From Stenotrophomonas maltophilia (GTDB taxonomy: Bacteria; Pseudomonadota; Gammaproteobacteria; Xanthomonadales; Xanthomonadaceae), in NCBI RefSeq assembly GCF_023518235.1, contig NZ_CP090423.1:2418001-2482000 (forward strand): DNA of 64,000 nucleotides, given 5' to 3'. Every line of letters starts with the position of its first letter. Within the stretch, counting starts at the first letter, position 1. Positions 6,150 through 43,190 of the stretch are shown here, one piece after another. A program made the translations under genes and the position numbers. Below the pieces are notes generated by a model. It was not told where the DNA came from and did not search any database. It saw only the letters and a list, made by a program, of their open reading frames with translations.

Positions 6150-7403
6150 TCAGCGGAAGGCGGCGATCGTGTGCTTGGTGTTGACCAGCACGCGCTGGTT
6201 GTCGGCGGTACTGGCATTGCCCATCGGGATGCCGTTGTAGCTGATGTTCGGGTTCGACCAGTAGTTCAGGCGCGGGCAGCTGCGGGTGCAGTTGTAGGCC
6301 ATGATGGTGCGCCAGCCGGTGCCGCTGGACGGTTCATAGCGGTAGCCATGGCCATAGGCATAGGGCGAGGTGCTCGGGTCGGTGGCGATGTCATGCCGTG
6401 CGCTCTGCAGGTGGCCGATCTCGTGCGCGAAGGAGTAGTACCCAGTCGCACAGTCCCAGTACACCGCCGCGAACGCGGTCGACGCCGTCGAGCCGATACC
6501 CGAGGCCAGGCCGCAATAGGCGCTGTTGTTGATCAGCAGTACGCCGACATCGGCGGTGGTGGTGTTGCGGCTGGTGTGGATGCTGTCCATGTAGCCATCG
6601 CTGGTGCCACGGAACCGCGCCAGGTCGGTATCGAAGCTGCCCGACTCGCTGTAGCTGGTGGTCTCGTAGCCGGCCAGCTGCAGGGTGAGGCCGACGTTGC
6701 TGTTGGTGTAGCCCTGGTTGGACTCGGCCACCGCCAGCTGCACCAGCGACTGCATGTTGCCGCCGTAGGCCGCCACCGCCGCGTTGGTTGCCACCACCAG
6801 CACTCGGATGGTGGCTGGGGTGCCCGACGATGCCTGCGCGATGCCGATGCGGTCGCTGTCGCCCATCGGGATCTTCGGCAACTGGTTGTAGTCGGCCGGA
6901 TGGTCGGCCGGCATCCGCGATTCGTCCACCTCGACCAGCACATGGCGGTTGCCCAGCGGGCGCAGTCGGTACAACTTGCCGTCCTTGCGGATCGAACCGG
7001 TGAGGGTGTTGCCCGAGCGCACCAGGATCAGCGAATTGCCCGGATCGTCCTGGCCGTTGGAGGTCGCGGCGGTCAGCTTGTCCGAAGGCGAACGGAACTG
7101 GCCATACCAGATGCTGCCGCCGTCGGGCAGCGCTTCGAGCTTGCTGCGTACTGCCTGCACGCGCTGGCCGAGCAGCTCGAACTCCAGCTGCGTCGATGCA
7201 GTGGCTGCCGCATCAACGCGGACTTCCTGCACCGTGGCCGTGGACGGGGTCGCCAGCAGCTTGCCCAGCGCGGGCTCGCTCGACGCCGAGGCGCGACTGA
7301 GTACCGTCACCGGTTCGAACAGGGGAGCCGCGTGTGCGGCCGCTACCACCGACAATCCCAACACCAGGCCATCTGCCGCTTTGCCAATCGATCTGGACAA
7401 CAT
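6150..7403 (-). CDS. Secreted zinc metalloprotease, metzincin-like (M12B/reprolysin type)
   Basis: The 417-residue protein starts with a signal peptide of about 25 residues (cut after AAAHA). A propeptide-like region follows, then a catalytic domain with HEIGHLQSARHD at 327-338. His327, His331 and His337 would bind zinc and Glu328 would be the general base. The motif fits the metzincin pattern HExxHxxGxxH except that Ser334 replaces the usual Gly. An ATG at 7403 preceded by AAGGAG is preferred over the longer open frame. The gene is divergent from the DUF2235 lipase gene. It is likely an extracellular protease; its substrate is unknown. Confidence 0.82.
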   Translation of the reverse strand: MLSRSIGKAADGLVLGLSVVAAAHAAPLFEPVTVLSRASASSEPALGKLLATPSTATVQEVRVDAAATASTQLEFELLGQRVQAVRSKLEALPDGGSIWYGQFRSPSDKLTAATSNGQDDPGNSLILVRSGNTLTGSIRKDGKLYRLRPLGNRHVLVEVDESRMPADHPADYNQLPKIPMGDSDRIGIAQASSGTPATIRVLVVATNAAVAAYGGNMQSLVQLAVAESNQGYTNSNVGLTLQLAGYETTSYSESGSFDTDLARFRGTSDGYMDSIHTSRNTTTADVGVLLINNSAYCGLASGIGSTASTAFAAVYWDCATGYYSFAHEIGHLQSARHDIATDPSTSPYAYGHGYRYEPSSGTGWRTIMAYNCTRSCPRLNYWSNPNISYNGIPMGNASTADNQRVLVNTKHTIAAFR

Positions 7404-11484: not shown

Positions 11485-12246
11485 TTACAAGGAAGATGGC
11501 CGTGCCTGGCCGGGGATCCCGCCCGCGTCAGGCGCGGGCCGGGCCGGGCGCGCGGGCACCGGCTCGATGTTGCTGGGCAGTGCGGGGGCCCGCCTGGGCT
11601 CCGGCTCCACGTCCACGGGCCGCGGCCATCCGCCGCCCGCCACTACCTGGTTGAGAACGCCATTATCGCCTGTCACCGTCGGCTTGCCCAACACCTGCTG
11701 CGAAGATGGGGCGTCCTCGGCCAGAGGCAAGGGCAGCCGCGCCGGCAGCAGGGCCTGCAGCGGCAACGCCTGCGGCAATACCTCGTCCAGCTGTGGCAGT
11801 TGCGCCTGCATCCACGCCACCGCCGGTTGCAGCATCGGGCGCAGCTGCGACTGCTGCCACGCCGACTCACCCGGCAGCGTGGTGAAGCCGGCCAGCAACA
11901 GCAGGACGCAGGCGAAGAACGCACCGCGGACCGCACCCAGCGCCCCGCCCAGCAGACGATCGACGCCACCGAGCAGGGTCAGTTTGATCACCGCCTTCAG
12001 CAGCAGGCCCACCAGGCCTACCAGCACCACGGTGGCCACGAATACGCCCAGATAGCCGGCCAGGTAATGGCCGCTGCCCGGAGACTGCGGCGCCGCCCAC
12101 CAGTGGGATGCCTGGTTGCCGAAGGTGAACGCCGCCCAGCCGGCCAGCAGCCAGGACACCAGCGCCACCACCGTACCGACGAACCCACGGATGAAGCCGA
12201 ACAGAGCGGACGCGCCGATCAGCACGCCCAGCACGATGTCGATCAC
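11485..12246 (-). CDS. cvpA: CvpA family inner-membrane protein
   Basis: The 253-residue protein begins MIDIVLGVLIGASALFGF from a GTG codon. Its N-terminal two thirds hold four hydrophobic helices; the C-terminal part is Pro/Ala/Gln-rich and probably lies in the periplasm. CvpA was named for colicin V production in E. coli and is linked to envelope homeostasis. The C-terminal extension makes it longer than the E. coli protein (about 160 residues). The position between dedD and purF supports the assignment. Confidence 0.92.
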   Translation of the reverse strand: MIDIVLGVLIGASALFGFIRGFVGTVVALVSWLLAGWAAFTFGNQASHWWAAPQSPGSGHYLAGYLGVFVATVVLVGLVGLLLKAVIKLTLLGGVDRLLGGALGAVRGAFFACVLLLLAGFTTLPGESAWQQSQLRPMLQPAVAWMQAQLPQLDEVLPQALPLQALLPARLPLPLAEDAPSSQQVLGKPTVTGDNGVLNQVVAGGGWPRPVDVEPEPRRAPALPSNIEPVPARPARPAPDAGGIPGQARPSSL

Positions 12247-32207: not shown

Positions 32208-34088
32208 TCAGCGGCCCAGCGCGCGGCGGATCTCTTCCAGTGCACTGGGGTCATCCAGGGTCGACAGATCACCCGGGTCGCGCTGCTCGGCCAGCGCCTG
32301 CAACGAGCGCCGCAGCAGCTTGCCGGACCGCGTCTTGGGCAGTGCGTTGACCACATGCACATGCGCCGGGCGCGCCACCGCGCCGAGCGAGGTGGTCACC
32401 GTGGCCATCATCTCCGCCACCACCGGCGCCGGGTCCTCACCGTTGAGACCCTGCTTGAGGGTGACGAACACCAGTGGCACCTGCCCCTTCAGCTCGTCCT
32501 TGACCCCTATCACGGCGGCCTCGGCCACGCGCGGGTGGCTGGAAATGGCCTCCTCGATCTCGCGCGTGCCCAAGCGGTGCCCGGCCACGTTGATCACATC
32601 ATCGGTACGGCCGAGGATGAAGGTATAGCCATCGTCGTCGCGGATCGCCCAGTCCAGCGAGCTGTACAGCAGTTCCTTGAAGTGGCTGAAGTAGCTCTGC
32701 AGGAAACGGTTGTCGTCGTTCCACACCGTGCTCATGCAGCCCGGCGGCAGCGGCGGCGACACCACCAGCACGCCCTTCTGTCCCGGCGCGACTTCTTCGC
32801 CGGTGTTCTCGTCAATCACCTTCATCCGGTAACCGAGGTTGGGGAAGCCGGGCGAGCCGAAGCGCACCGGCTTCATCTCCAGGCCGGGCAGCAGGGTCAG
32901 CGCCGGCCAACCGGTTTCGGTCTGCCAGTAGTTGTCGATGATCGGCTTGCCCAGTGCCTCATTGATCCAGTGCGCAGTCGGCTCGTCCAGCGGCTCGCCG
33001 GCCAGGAACAGGTACTTCAGCGCGCGCAGGTCGTGGCGATGGATGAAGTCGGCATCATGCTTCTTCAGCACGCGGATCGCGGTGGGCGAAGAGAACATCG
33101 TGCGCACGTTGTACTGTTCGCACAGCGCCCACCAGATGCCCGGATCGGGGTTGGTCGGCAGCCCTTCATACAGCAGCGAGGTGCAACCCCCGATCAGCGG
33201 CCCGTACACGTTGTACGAATGGCCCACGGCCCAGCCGACATCGGAGGTGGAGAACATCACCTGCCCGGGCCTGCAGTCGAAAACGGTTTCCATCGACTGT
33301 GCCATCGCCACCGCATAGCCGCCGACATCGCGCTGCACGCCCTTGGGCTTGCCGGTGGTGCCGGAGGTGTACAGCAGGTAGCTAGGCTCGCTGGCTTCCA
33401 GCCACTGCACCGGCACATCCACCTGCCCGATCTGCGCACGCAGCGCGGCGTACTCCACATCACGGCCCGGCACGCGCGGCTCGGCCGCATCCAGTCCGCG
33501 CGACACGATCAACACGTGCGGTGGCGGCGCGCTGGCTTCTGCACAGGCTGCATCGACCATCGGCTTGTACGGAATCAGCTTGCCACCGCGCATGCCGGCA
33601 TCGGCGGCGATCAGCAGCTTGGGCCTGGCATCGTCGATGCGCAGCGCCAGGTTGTGTGCGGCAAAGCCACCGAATACCACCGAATGCACCGCACCGATGC
33701 GTGCACAGGCGAGCATCGCGAACACGGCCTCGGCCATGTTCGGCATGTAGATCACCACGCGGTCGCCGTGGCCAACGCCGAGATGCTTGAGCACGGCAGC
33801 GAAATCATTCACTTCGCGATACAGCTGGCGATAGGTGATTTCGCGGGTGCTGTTGGTTTCGGTGGAGATGGCCACCAGCGCGAGCTGGTCGGGACGGTCG
33901 GCCAGATGGCGGTCGACAGCGTTGTAGCAGAGATTGGTTTCACCGCCGACGAACCAGCGCCGGAACGGCGGATTGCTGTAGTCGAGCACCTGCTGTGGCG
34001 GCTTGTGCCAATGGATGCGCTTGGCTTCCTCGCCCCAGAAGGCCTCCGGCTCGTCGATCGAGCGACGGTAGGTTTCCTCGTAGTTCAT
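32208..34088 (-). CDS. prpE: Propionate-CoA ligase PrpE
   Basis: The 626-residue AMP-forming acyl-CoA synthetase starts MNYEETYRRSIDEPEAFWGE, the PrpE pattern rather than that of Acs. It has the ATP loop LLYTSGTTGKPKGVQRDVGGY, YWQTETGWP, and the C-terminal Lys of PKTRSGKLLRR that is acetylated in regulation. It activates propionate to propionyl-CoA. GGGAGGG lies seven bases before the ATG. It stands alone here; prpB, prpC and prpD of the methylcitrate cycle are not in the window. A 555-bp structured repeat element precedes it. Confidence 0.93.
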   Translation of the reverse strand: MNYEETYRRSIDEPEAFWGEEAKRIHWHKPPQQVLDYSNPPFRRWFVGGETNLCYNAVDRHLADRPDQLALVAISTETNSTREITYRQLYREVNDFAAVLKHLGVGHGDRVVIYMPNMAEAVFAMLACARIGAVHSVVFGGFAAHNLALRIDDARPKLLIAADAGMRGGKLIPYKPMVDAACAEASAPPPHVLIVSRGLDAAEPRVPGRDVEYAALRAQIGQVDVPVQWLEASEPSYLLYTSGTTGKPKGVQRDVGGYAVAMAQSMETVFDCRPGQVMFSTSDVGWAVGHSYNVYGPLIGGCTSLLYEGLPTNPDPGIWWALCEQYNVRTMFSSPTAIRVLKKHDADFIHRHDLRALKYLFLAGEPLDEPTAHWINEALGKPIIDNYWQTETGWPALTLLPGLEMKPVRFGSPGFPNLGYRMKVIDENTGEEVAPGQKGVLVVSPPLPPGCMSTVWNDDNRFLQSYFSHFKELLYSSLDWAIRDDDGYTFILGRTDDVINVAGHRLGTREIEEAISSHPRVAEAAVIGVKDELKGQVPLVFVTLKQGLNGEDPAPVVAEMMATVTTSLGAVARPAHVHVVNALPKTRSGKLLRRSLQALAEQRDPGDLSTLDDPSALEEIRRALGR

Positions 34089-34245
34089 GACGCAGCCCTC
34101 CCAGACAAAGTCATGGGTTCGAGGATAGTCCGGCGCTGCCGCGCGGGCCGCCCTACCTTGGTAGGGGGTGGGTTTGTTCGGCAGGGCTTGCAGCCCTGCA
34201 CCTGCAGAAGCCGAAGCAACAGCAGAAGCTGGCTTGCTGGGGGAT

Positions 34246-34346
34246 GGCGGGGTGGGTCCGGTTGCGGGGGACGCCGTGAATCCGTCCATGGAGGCTCGGT
34301 CGCGCCATCCATGGCGCTCACGCCCCCGCAACCGGACCCATCCCGC
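34246..34346 (-). repeat. Structured repeat unit E1
   Basis: The arms at 34246-34272 and 34321-34346 pair with one G-T wobble and one bulged base. An inner seven-pair hairpin lies at 34302-34308/34311-34317. Read on the minus strand the apex is GCGCCATGGATGGCGC, then CGAGCCTCCATGGACGG and TTCACGGCGT. A header with CTGTCGAA lies directly 5' of it. Confidence 0.82.
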
Positions 34347-34551
34347 CTTCGACAGTTCTCCGCAATCTTTCGGGCTGGCATTACCTGGGCTCTTGGTGGG
34401 TGTCGACCTTGGTCGACACGCTTGATCCACGCCATGCACGGATGACTCATTCGATATCTGAAAGAAAAATCGTGTCGACCAAGGTCGACATCTACCAACA
34501 GCCGTGCGGAACAACGGCCGCAGTTACCAACAGCCGCGGGAATCTGTCAGA

Positions 34552-34655
34552 GGCGGGGCGGTGTGGGTGGGCAGGACCGTTGGCGCCATGGATGGCGCCA
34601 TCGAGCCCCCATGGATGGGTTTACGGCGTGTCCTGCCCACCCACACCGCCCCGCC
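34552..34655 (+). repeat. Structured repeat unit E2
   Basis: Its outer arms (34552-34577 and 34630-34655) are a perfect 26-bp inverted repeat. The apex repeats the E1 apex: GGCGCCATGGATGGCGCC, CGAGCCCCCATGGATGG, TTTACGGCGT. The arm sequence differs from E1 at many positions but stays fully paired. Confidence 0.85.
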
Positions 34656-34740
34656 AACCCACGGATGGCCCGCTTTCGCCGTTGACGTTGACGTTGCTCT
34701 GGCTCGTAGCAGGTGCAGGGCTGCAAGCCCTGCCGACCCC

Positions 34741-35355
34741 CTAGAACGGAGCCGCAGACTCGAACGCGAGCGCTTCGCCCGTCACCGGGTGGGTAAACCG
34801 CAGGCTGCGTGCATGCAGGTGCACGCGCTGCGCCGGAGCGGCGTCGTACAGCACGTCACCGACAATGGGATGGCCGAGGCTGGCCATGTGCAGGCGCAGC
34901 TGATGGCTGCGGCCAGTGATCGGTTCCAGCGCCACGCGGGTGCGCTGCGCTTCAACATCACGTGCCATCACGCGCCAGCGCGTCAGAGCAGGTTTGCCGC
35001 GCTCACGGTCGACCACCTGCTTCGGTCGGTTCGGCCAATCCACGATCAGCGGCAGGTCCACTTCGCCGGCCTCGCCTTCGATCAAACCCTGCACGATGGC
35101 CTCGTAGCACTTGCCGACCTGGCGCCGCTCGAACTGCATCGACAATGCGGCCTGCATCTCTTTGCCGCGCGCATGCAGCAACAGGCCGGAGGTCACCTGG
35201 TCCAGCCGATGCACGGTCAGCGCGTCCGGGTACACCGCCTGCAGGCGTGTGACCACGCAGTCCTGGTTTTCCTCGCTGCGGCCGGGCACGGACAGCAGGC
35301 CGGCCGGCTTCTCGGCCACCAGCAGCGCGTCGTCGATGTAGTGCAGGTGGATCAT
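34741..35355 (-). CDS. RluA-family pseudouridine synthase
   Basis: The 204-residue protein starts MIHLHYIDDALLVAEKPAGLLSVPG and has the catalytic motif HRLDQVTSGLLLHARG with the essential Asp, plus GRSHQLRLHMASLGHPIVGD. It lacks an S4 domain, as in RluA itself, which modifies 23S U746 and tRNA U32; the target here is inferred. The start at 35355 excludes the mdh terminator upstream. Its TAG stop lies seven bases from composite element A. Confidence 0.9.
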   Translation of the reverse strand: MIHLHYIDDALLVAEKPAGLLSVPGRSEENQDCVVTRLQAVYPDALTVHRLDQVTSGLLLHARGKEMQAALSMQFERRQVGKCYEAIVQGLIEGEAGEVDLPLIVDWPNRPKQVVDRERGKPALTRWRVMARDVEAQRTRVALEPITGRSHQLRLHMASLGHPIVGDVLYDAAPAQRVHLHARSLRFTHPVTGEALAFESAAPF

Positions 35356-42541: not shown

Positions 42542-42720
42542 CGCTGCCACCTCCGTCACTCTGCATGCAGATACACAGCGTGGCCCAGCACGGATGAGCG
42601 CAATGTCAGACGTTCGTAAGCAGAATGTAGGTGGGGCTCGGCAGGGCTGCGCCCTGCACCCGCGGTAGTGCCGGCCGCTGGCCGGCAACCTCAGCAGCAA
42701 CAGCGTGCATCCTGTGGGAT

Positions 42721-42822
42721 GGCGAGGTGGGTCCGGTTGCGGGGGACGCCGTGAATCCCTCCATGGAGGCTCGGTCGCCGCATCCATGCGGCTCACGCCC
42801 CCGCAACCGGACCCACCCCGCC
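42721..42822 (-). repeat. Structured repeat unit E3
   Basis: The arms 42721-42748 and 42796-42822 pair with one A-C mismatch and one bulged base. The inner hairpin 42777-42783/42786-42792 differs from E1 by two base pairs that both changed on both sides. The apex on the minus strand reads GCCGCATGGATGCGGC, CGAGCCTCCATGGAGGG, TTCACGGCGT. Confidence 0.82.
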
Positions 42823-42993
42823 TTCGACAGTTTTCCGCGATCTGCCCGCTCTTCTGTAGAGCCGAGCCACGCTCGGCTCAAATCGTTCCGAAATCGAAAT
42901 ATTCGATGTCGATGGAGATTCATCCATGCAAGGCGTGGATCCACCGTGTCGACCAAGGTCGACACCTACCCACGGCCGCAGGAATCCGTCAGA

Positions 42994-43097
42994 GGTGGGA
43001 CGGTGTGGGTAGGCAGGACCGTTGGCGCCATGGATGGCGCCATCGAGCCCCCATGGATGGGTTTACGGCGTGTCCTGGCTACCCACACCGTCCCGCC
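42994..43097 (+). repeat. Structured repeat unit E4
   Basis: The 26-base arms 42994-43019 and 43072-43097 pair at 24 Watson-Crick positions plus one G-T wobble, with one mismatch. Compared with E2, two pairs changed from G-C to A-T on both sides. The apex is identical to that of E2. Confidence 0.84.
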
Positions 43098-43124
43098 ATC
43101 CCACGGAATGCCGCTTCGGCTTTT

Positions 43125-43148
43125 GCCGTTGCCGTTGCCGTTGCCGTT
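43125..43148. repeat. Hexanucleotide tandem repeat (GCCGTT)x4
   Basis: Four exact GCCGTT units lie in the tail of unit E4. The matching place in element A has GTTGAC repeats (34681-34695), so this is a variable microsatellite inside the element. It is non-coding. Confidence 0.8.
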
Positions 43149-43190
43149 GATTGCAGCAGGTGCAGGGCTGCAAGCCCTGCCGCAACACAC

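Follow-up and report, generated by a model that had tools for sequence, protein, structure and literature searches.

A composite of YPAL/RU-2-type hairpin repeats in Stenotrophomonas maltophilia whose twin apical loops resemble CsrA/RsmA sites

The block and its parts

The window, that is, the whole stretch of 64,000 nucleotides of Stenotrophomonas maltophilia DNA that was analysed, begins at C1:2418001. The block studied here lies between two minus-strand genes, one for a propionate/acetate-CoA-ligase-like protein and the other, which ends at 34741, for an RluA-like pseudouridine synthase, both names being our reading of the translations. The preliminary description of this DNA reported two outward-facing units within a non-coding block between two genes, and these were seen again (Table 1). 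It also gave a perfect terminal inverted repeat of 26 bp; the repeat is indeed perfect but its true length is 28 bp. The arms of the spacer palindromes are 36 nt long and 89% complementary, the units' own stems measure 28 nt (93%) in unit A and 26 nt (100%) in unit B, and the two units are complementary to each other at 79% over 66 nt. When each unit was folded alone as RNA, the energies were -83.4 (z -8.5) and -89.1 kcal/mol (z -10.5), the z scores being relative to shuffled sequences. A second composite of this kind is present in the window at 42692-43181 (C1:2460692-2461181), with an outward pair of units and an exact right terminal repeat.

Table 1. Features of the composite block, in window positions
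Feature	Position	Strand	Description
Composite block	34178..34736		Terminal repeat, minus unit, REP-bearing spacer, plus unit, terminal repeat
Left terminal repeat copy	34178..34205	+	Perfect 28-bp inverted repeat with the small hairpin GCAGGGCT-TGC-AGCCCTGC inside
Unit A, YPAL-type	34239..34360	-	Header, long stem, two-hairpin apex; R1 match
Unit A loop 2	34284..34289	-	AUGGAC hexaloop, C-G closing pair; from sequence and consensus structure
Unit A loop 1	34307..34312	-	AUGGAU hexaloop, C-G closing pair; from sequence and consensus structure
Spacer palindromes	34388..34503		Two SMAG/REP-like repeats of the GTGTCGACC..GGTCGACAC type, inverted relative to each other; from arm complementarity
Unit B, YPAL-type	34539..34662	+	Header, long stem, two-hairpin apex; R1 match
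Unit B loop 1	34588..34593	+	AUGGAU hexaloop, C-G closing pair; from sequence and consensus structure
Unit B loop 2	34611..34616	+	AUGGAU hexaloop, C-G closing pair; from sequence and consensus structure
Right terminal repeat copy	34709..34736	-	Just past the stop codon of the RluA-like gene

Copies in the genome and their place among genes

A search of the genome with the block by BLAST gave at least 122 matches (from the best 40 of 240 candidates) that were grouped into at least 40 places. The expression CANGGANG..CANGGANG gave 65 matches, and the 64 in-block units among them made up alignment A1, from which the covariance model R1, with 122 positions, was built. R1 gave at least 143 matches in the same genome (from the best 150 of 6368 candidates). 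Counting copies per genome with such a model had been proposed in the preliminary description, and after overlapping opposite-strand R1 matches were removed the count came to at least 127 units in at least 77 places, which is approximate because part of the 127 units are weak, the lowest scoring 37.7 bits. Among the R1 matches listed, these 77 places comprise 48 outward pairs, 27 single units, one pair with both units on the plus strand and one with both on the minus strand, and no inward pair.

The 26-bp form of the terminal repeat, with up to three mismatches allowed, has 27 copies genome-wide, whereas the reversed pattern gave none in the same scan, and therefore the repeat is not a chance occurrence. 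In 26 of the 27 the repeat lies 29-71 nt outside a unit cluster, in plus orientation on the left side and in minus orientation on the right, and the remaining copy overlaps its cluster. Since every copy adjoins a unit cluster, the terminal repeat is part of the composite, and in this genome, the one scanned, no copy marks another element. It marks 21 of the 77 places listed. By eye, the spacers of the 48 outward pairs hold varied REP-type palindromes and have no sequence common to all of them. Some of these spacers, for example L018, L030 and L040, contain GGGGTCAGATCCGTTTTC..GAAAACGGATCTGACCCC hairpins that fit the GGGGWSAS of TIRYT terminal repeats (PMC3733652). At five other loci (L034, L044, L128, L136 and L138) an arm of about 80 nt with further hairpins inside it is inserted in loop 1 or loop 2, and the R1 matches there are about 200 nt long.

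The gene context was scored by a rough ORF rule at 67 of the 77 places, the 10 with an internal ORF call being excluded. Convergent genes flank 28 of the 67, 33 are in tandem contexts and 6 lie between divergent genes. Gene 3' ends that face a unit are 50-95 bp from it in 58 of 89 cases (median 77), and facing 5' ends fall in this range in 9 of 45 (median 146). Single units in tandem contexts are co-directional with the genes in 8 cases and opposite in 4, which is a weak orientation bias. Owing to the outward layout of a pair, a transcript reading through from either side would contain one unit in the GGA sense.

Fold and covariation

The 64 units of A1 have a common fold, in which a stem of about 25 bp bears two hairpins at its apex. 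Pairing holds in 99.0% of the cells of A1 and compensatory changes are found at 27 of the 38 pairs; there are 444 compensated cells, against a mean of 138 when shuffled and 11-49 in slid versions. Alignment A2, drawn from other genera and families, has 45 distinct rows, one of them an opposite-strand echo, and it was fitted to R1, which favours the structure; 97.1% of its cells are paired, changes on both sides occur at 37 of the 38 pairs, and the cells with both-side changes number 606 (shuffled mean 171; slid versions 95-143). Between genera the stem sequences are unrelated, and the apex and the fold are kept. On the strand that carries GGA, read from header to tail, there are 62 G-U cells versus 6 A-C cells in A2 (44 rows) and 98 versus 30 in A4 (125 rows), and this excess points to the header-to-tail strand as the one under selection to fold. 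In the minimum-energy folds of five single units the consensus hairpins are not both drawn in all: that of unit A has neither as drawn, and in the other four hairpin 1 is present and hairpin 2 is mostly replaced. Decayed genes were rejected as the source of the block because the ORFs across it are mechanical and the compensatory changes favour a structure. The preliminary description was right on this point, and the block is a repeated, structured non-coding composite with a dedicated fold and a mobile-like distribution.

Range across genomes

R1 found matches in 32 of 121 genomes of the order, belonging to 15 of 56 genera; within the genus, 8 of the 9 genomes of the order sample had them, our own genome included. 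Using R2, a core model made from 77 units (alignment A5 took 77 of 109 picked cores), matches were found in 78 of 369 genomes and 69 of 271 genera of the class, and in the phylum sample 20 of 299 genomes matched, 19 within the class and one, weakly, outside it. Carrier genera among the matches listed from a pattern scan are Yersinia, Sodalis, Shewanella, Rheinheimera, Idiomarina, Marinobacter, Halopseudomonas, Microbulbifer, Methylomonas and Xanthomonas, the pattern being one that included loop 2 and the linker. Outside Stenotrophomonas, 11 of the 13 cases of neighbouring units within 300 nt in A2 face outward, with one inward and one tandem, as do 14 of 19 in A3, with four inward and one tandem after one overlapping match was excluded. 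The totals for other genera, 25 outward, 5 inward and 2 tandem, show the outward layout to be common without being a rule. In another gammaproteobacterium (G714:C1:94436-95646) six core matches form a tandem array on one strand with a spacing of about 227 nt, and the core is also present in two contigs of a viral collection (L359 at 11490-11556, near the contig end, and L360 at 6220-6294). One genome of the same genus, G013, has no R1 or R2 match, and its orthologous spacer carries a different repeat set (L324).

The apical loops and their likeness to CsrA sites

From header to tail, each of the two apical loops is an ANGGAN hexaloop with a C-G closing pair, and the two are mostly 19-21 nt apart. 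Because the units of A1 had been picked by motif, the loops were recounted on 61 units of this genome outside A1, and in these counts, which rest on R1 and so on a model trained on motif-chosen units, loop 1 was CANGGANG in 55 of the 61 and loop 2 was CANGGANG in 54, each N position of loop 2 being found with all four bases. In four of the six loop-1 exceptions the loop is interrupted by an arm of about 80 nt; the seven exceptions in loop 2 are six single changes of differing kinds and one inserted arm. All 29 distant units of A5 that R1 found independently of the pattern have a C-G-closed ANGGAN as loop 2, and the letters G, G and A of loop 1 are present in 29, 28 and 28 of them. A simple rule applied to 128 units outside Stenotrophomonas identified the loop-1 hairpin in 122, with GGA in 106 of these; by eye, the rule missed a shorter, GGA-bearing hairpin in most of the 16 others, and the true losses include L100 and L225. 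The GGA-to-GGA gap outside Stenotrophomonas is 19-21 nt in 95 of the 104 counted. A census of GGA hexaloops on stems of at least 4 bp found them in 31 of 46 A2 units, 79 of 113 A3 units and 113 of 125 units of this genome. Hairpin 2 alternates between UAC-ANGGAN-GUA and CCC-ANGGAN-GGG, which is a compensated change.

Sites for CsrA/RsmA have been described as an ANGGAN hexaloop, with the SELEX consensus RUACARGGAUGU and a best intersite distance of more than 18 nt (PMC7652899), and the SELEX ligands mostly have four or fewer stem pairs (same source). Two features of RNA that binds CsrA/RsmA are present in the units, namely, an ANGGAN hairpin loop with free N positions and two GGA sites so spaced, going by the range in that source, that one dimer could bridge them. 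By sequence, then, the units, with GGA fixed and both N variable, match CsrA/RsmA sites. Hairpin 1 often exceeds the four-pair stem of most SELEX ligands, and the unpaired apex bases GAGC and TTCACGGCGT, which are about as conserved as the GGA loops, are not accounted for by CsrA. In the open-access literature, the range of our search, we found no link between YPAL, the repeat to which we compare the unit below, and CsrA, and no CsrA-binding repeat family; the small RNA Ysr224 and CsrA are mentioned together there, but in the passages concerned they are named separately and without a link. Within that literature, reading the twin apical loops as putative CsrA-type sites is new.

CsrA (PF02599) is present in 313 of the 369 genomes of the class. 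By a by-eye matching of lists that does not control for relatedness, 73 of the 78 carriers of the unit have it versus 240 of 291 non-carriers (Fisher p 0.013), and among good genomes the figures, again uncontrolled for relatedness, are 64 of 65 versus 216 of 249 (p 0.006). The five carriers with no CsrA match are G182, G242, G273 and G514, which are 67-88% complete, and G368, which is 98% complete. This association lends weak support to the CsrA reading.

History of the site

A left-flank query matched all 61 genomes of the genus sample, 57 of them strongly; the weak matches, in G130, G147, G151 and G159, are perhaps to a paralogue. Twenty-five of 30 close loci, our own included, could be bridged, and 15 of these have both apices intact, 8 have one and 2 hold remnants. 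The preliminary description suggested a mobile element and proposed comparing occupied with empty sites; since all 25 bridged close loci turned out to carry the block or a remnant of it, a recent insertion at this site is ruled out. Among distant loci 8 of 20 were bridged and none of the 8 has a unit, L322, for example, having a gap of 20 nt. As the block is found in close relatives and in none of the bridged distant ones, it arose in the maltophilia-like lineage and was then kept. There was no empty site among the bridged close loci from which target duplications could be read, and the bridged unit-free sites belong to distant relatives whose spacers align too poorly for this. In the bridged close loci the apex subtype of each unit varies between species at one and the same place, and units have probably been exchanged among copies by gene conversion. 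Such a change of subtype from species to species, with the apex preserved throughout, may be a sign of selection on the apex itself.

Relation to YPAL/RU-2 and other known elements

Judged by its sequence, the unit is related to YPAL/RU-2, the Yersinia palindromic repeat. The printed 168-nt RU-2 sequence (PMC2759123, Table 1b), which that paper equates with YPAL, holds the core of the unit with both GGA hairpins. Rfam Ysr224 (RF02770) scores 126.5 and 94 bits (cut-off 70) at two Yersinia loci, L161 and L211, where it overlaps R1 units on the opposite strand; to the block itself it gives a weak match below the cut-off, also on the opposite strand. An Rfam scan of 33900-35000 (E <= 5) found nothing above cut-off, and in a scan of the block with ten distant loci, which otherwise returned hairpin look-alikes far below cut-off, the only family above it was Ysr224 at the two Yersinia loci. 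Several copies of Ysr224 with differing expression profiles have been reported in Y. ruckeri (PMC12112432). YPAL is described as an element of about 168 bp with internal inverted repeats and target duplications of 3-26 bp, which inserts at or beside dyads and of which filled and empty sites exist in Yersinia; expression together with upstream genes ('co-translated') is reported for it, perhaps with an effect on transcript stability, and a table of the same paper lists it without a terminal inverted repeat (PMC2229807).

The unit and YPAL/RU-2 are alike in being intergenic, palindromic and multi-copy and in sharing a core and a fold. They differ in that the stem sequences of the units here are unrelated, that the units are mostly outward pairs around REP-bearing spacers, and that the composite has a terminal inverted repeat of 26-28 bp (at 21 of the 77 places listed). 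The unit model has 122 positions and most units are paired; YPAL/RU-2 as a single element is about 168 bp long. Since it has such a repeat, the composite is a relative of YPAL and not YPAL as defined. As to the dyad-adjacent targets of YPAL, the spacers between the units hold palindromes, which may have arrived with the block. Ysr224 as drawn in Rfam lies on the strand opposite to the GGA loops. The preliminary description knew of no named family with this layout and held that a described repeat family would count against it; with the RU-2 core and the Ysr224 scores, a described family does exist for the unit, and for the paired layout with a terminal repeat we found no description in the open-access literature.

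The units are similar to CsrB/CsrC and RsmX/Y/Z in having several ANGGAN-type loops in hairpins (PMC7652899), but they have two sites each and many dispersed copies and are not a few sRNA genes, and these families gave no Rfam match in the block (E <= 5). TwoAYGGAY (RF01731), a proposed CsrA ligand, also has two GGA-loop hairpins; unlike the units here, it is not credited with a long basal stem or high copy number in the parts of PMC4333381 that describe it, and it had no Rfam match in 33900-35000 (E <= 5). With REP/BIME elements and their RAYT, and with TIRtrons (TIRYT), the composite shares inverted palindrome pairs between genes, and REPs are present in its spacers; its unit, however, is about 100 nt long with a two-hairpin apex, and no GTAG head was seen. 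S. maltophilia is reported to have two TIR repeat families, one of them self-complementary and close-set (PMC3733652). Membership in REP/RAYT or TIRtron families was rejected because none of the four Y1 transposase genes (PF01797) of this genome has a unit or a terminal repeat nearby and REPs occur in the spacers only. At one locus (L052, C1:2304627-2307827) REPs resembling those in the block's spacer flank a Y1 transposase gene.

Proposed function and alternatives

We propose, with moderate confidence, that the block is an old composite of YPAL/RU-2-type repeats and that its units are dispersed 3' CsrA-binding sites that titrate CsrA and have local effects. In this model the two YPAL/RU-2-type hairpin repeats face outward around a REP-bearing centre, with the lineage-specific terminal hairpin as a cap at the ends. 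The units were presumably mobile in the past and, by analogy, are probably transcribed in this genome; once transcribed, a unit would form a long stem displaying two ANGGAN hexaloop hairpins at a spacing of about 20 nt, which would suit clamping by one CsrA/RsmA dimer, and on the strength of these loops the units are predicted to bind CsrA. More than 100 copies would then act as dispersed CsrA-binding sites in the 3' regions of transcripts, and jointly they may titrate CsrA as a sponge while each affects its host transcript locally. Several results do not sit easily with this proposal: the family's sole sRNA annotation, Ysr224, lies opposite the GGA strand, the minimum-energy folds of the five single units do not all show both hairpins, CsrA leaves GAGC and TTCACGGCGT unexplained, the orientation bias is weak (8 with the genes versus 4 against), hairpin 1 is often longer than the stems of the SELEX ligands (mostly four pairs or fewer; PMC7652899), and 5 of the 78 carriers have no csrA match.

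There are three rival explanations. The folded single strand could be a DNA hairpin that serves in trans as the substrate of a transposase, HUH/Y1 or other, with the GGA loops as its recognition letters and any RNA role incidental. The many copies per genome, the outward pairs, the association of the terminal repeat with the composite, the long conserved unpaired stretches besides the GGAs and the reported mobility of YPAL, with filled and empty sites (PMC2229807), agree with this, and since G-T pairs are allowed in folded DNA the G-U over A-C bias fits a one-stranded DNA substrate too. We consider it unlikely because the four Y1 transposase genes of this genome are not accompanied by a unit or a terminal repeat, what distinguishes close relatives at this site is an exchange of unit subtypes, the block as a whole being neither gained nor lost, and the hexaloop with its two free N positions closely matches CsrA sites. 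It is similarly improbable that the unit is a plain 3'-end hairpin that stabilises or ends mRNAs and is an RNase III substrate, its GGA loops being inherited and having no present role. Such a hairpin would be expected where 28 of 67 places are between convergent genes and 6 between divergent ones, at the distances seen from gene 3' ends, and the expression of YPAL with upstream genes, perhaps affecting transcript stability (PMC2229807), would agree with it, but it gives no account of why the N positions and the stems vary around a fixed GGA. A divergent cassette, in which promoters in the spacer would drive two outward CsrB-like sRNAs and each unit would stand alone, we regard as highly improbable: for all that outward pairs number 48 and inward pairs none among the matches listed in this genome, and 25 against 5 inward and 2 tandem within 300 nt in other genera, the 48 spacers have no common sequence by eye and hold varied REP-type palindromes, and a single unit is found at 27 of the 77 places listed.

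Returning to the CsrA reading, a wider and more tentative form of it, to which we give somewhat less than even credence, is that YPAL was the first to be described of a class-wide family of mobile RNA hairpins addressed to CsrA, which spread through genomes with the twin CsrA-binding apex preserved and whose copies wire neighbouring transcripts into the Csr/Rsm system. If this is true, the set of copies would be a distributed sponge able to reset global regulation. Should the units bind CsrA, what was known as a miniature insertion sequence of Yersinia would become a class-wide family of regulatory RNA, in heavy carriers more than 100 extra CsrA sites per genome would enter the Csr/Rsm balance, and an element that looks mobile would clearly have spread sites for a global RNA-binding regulator.
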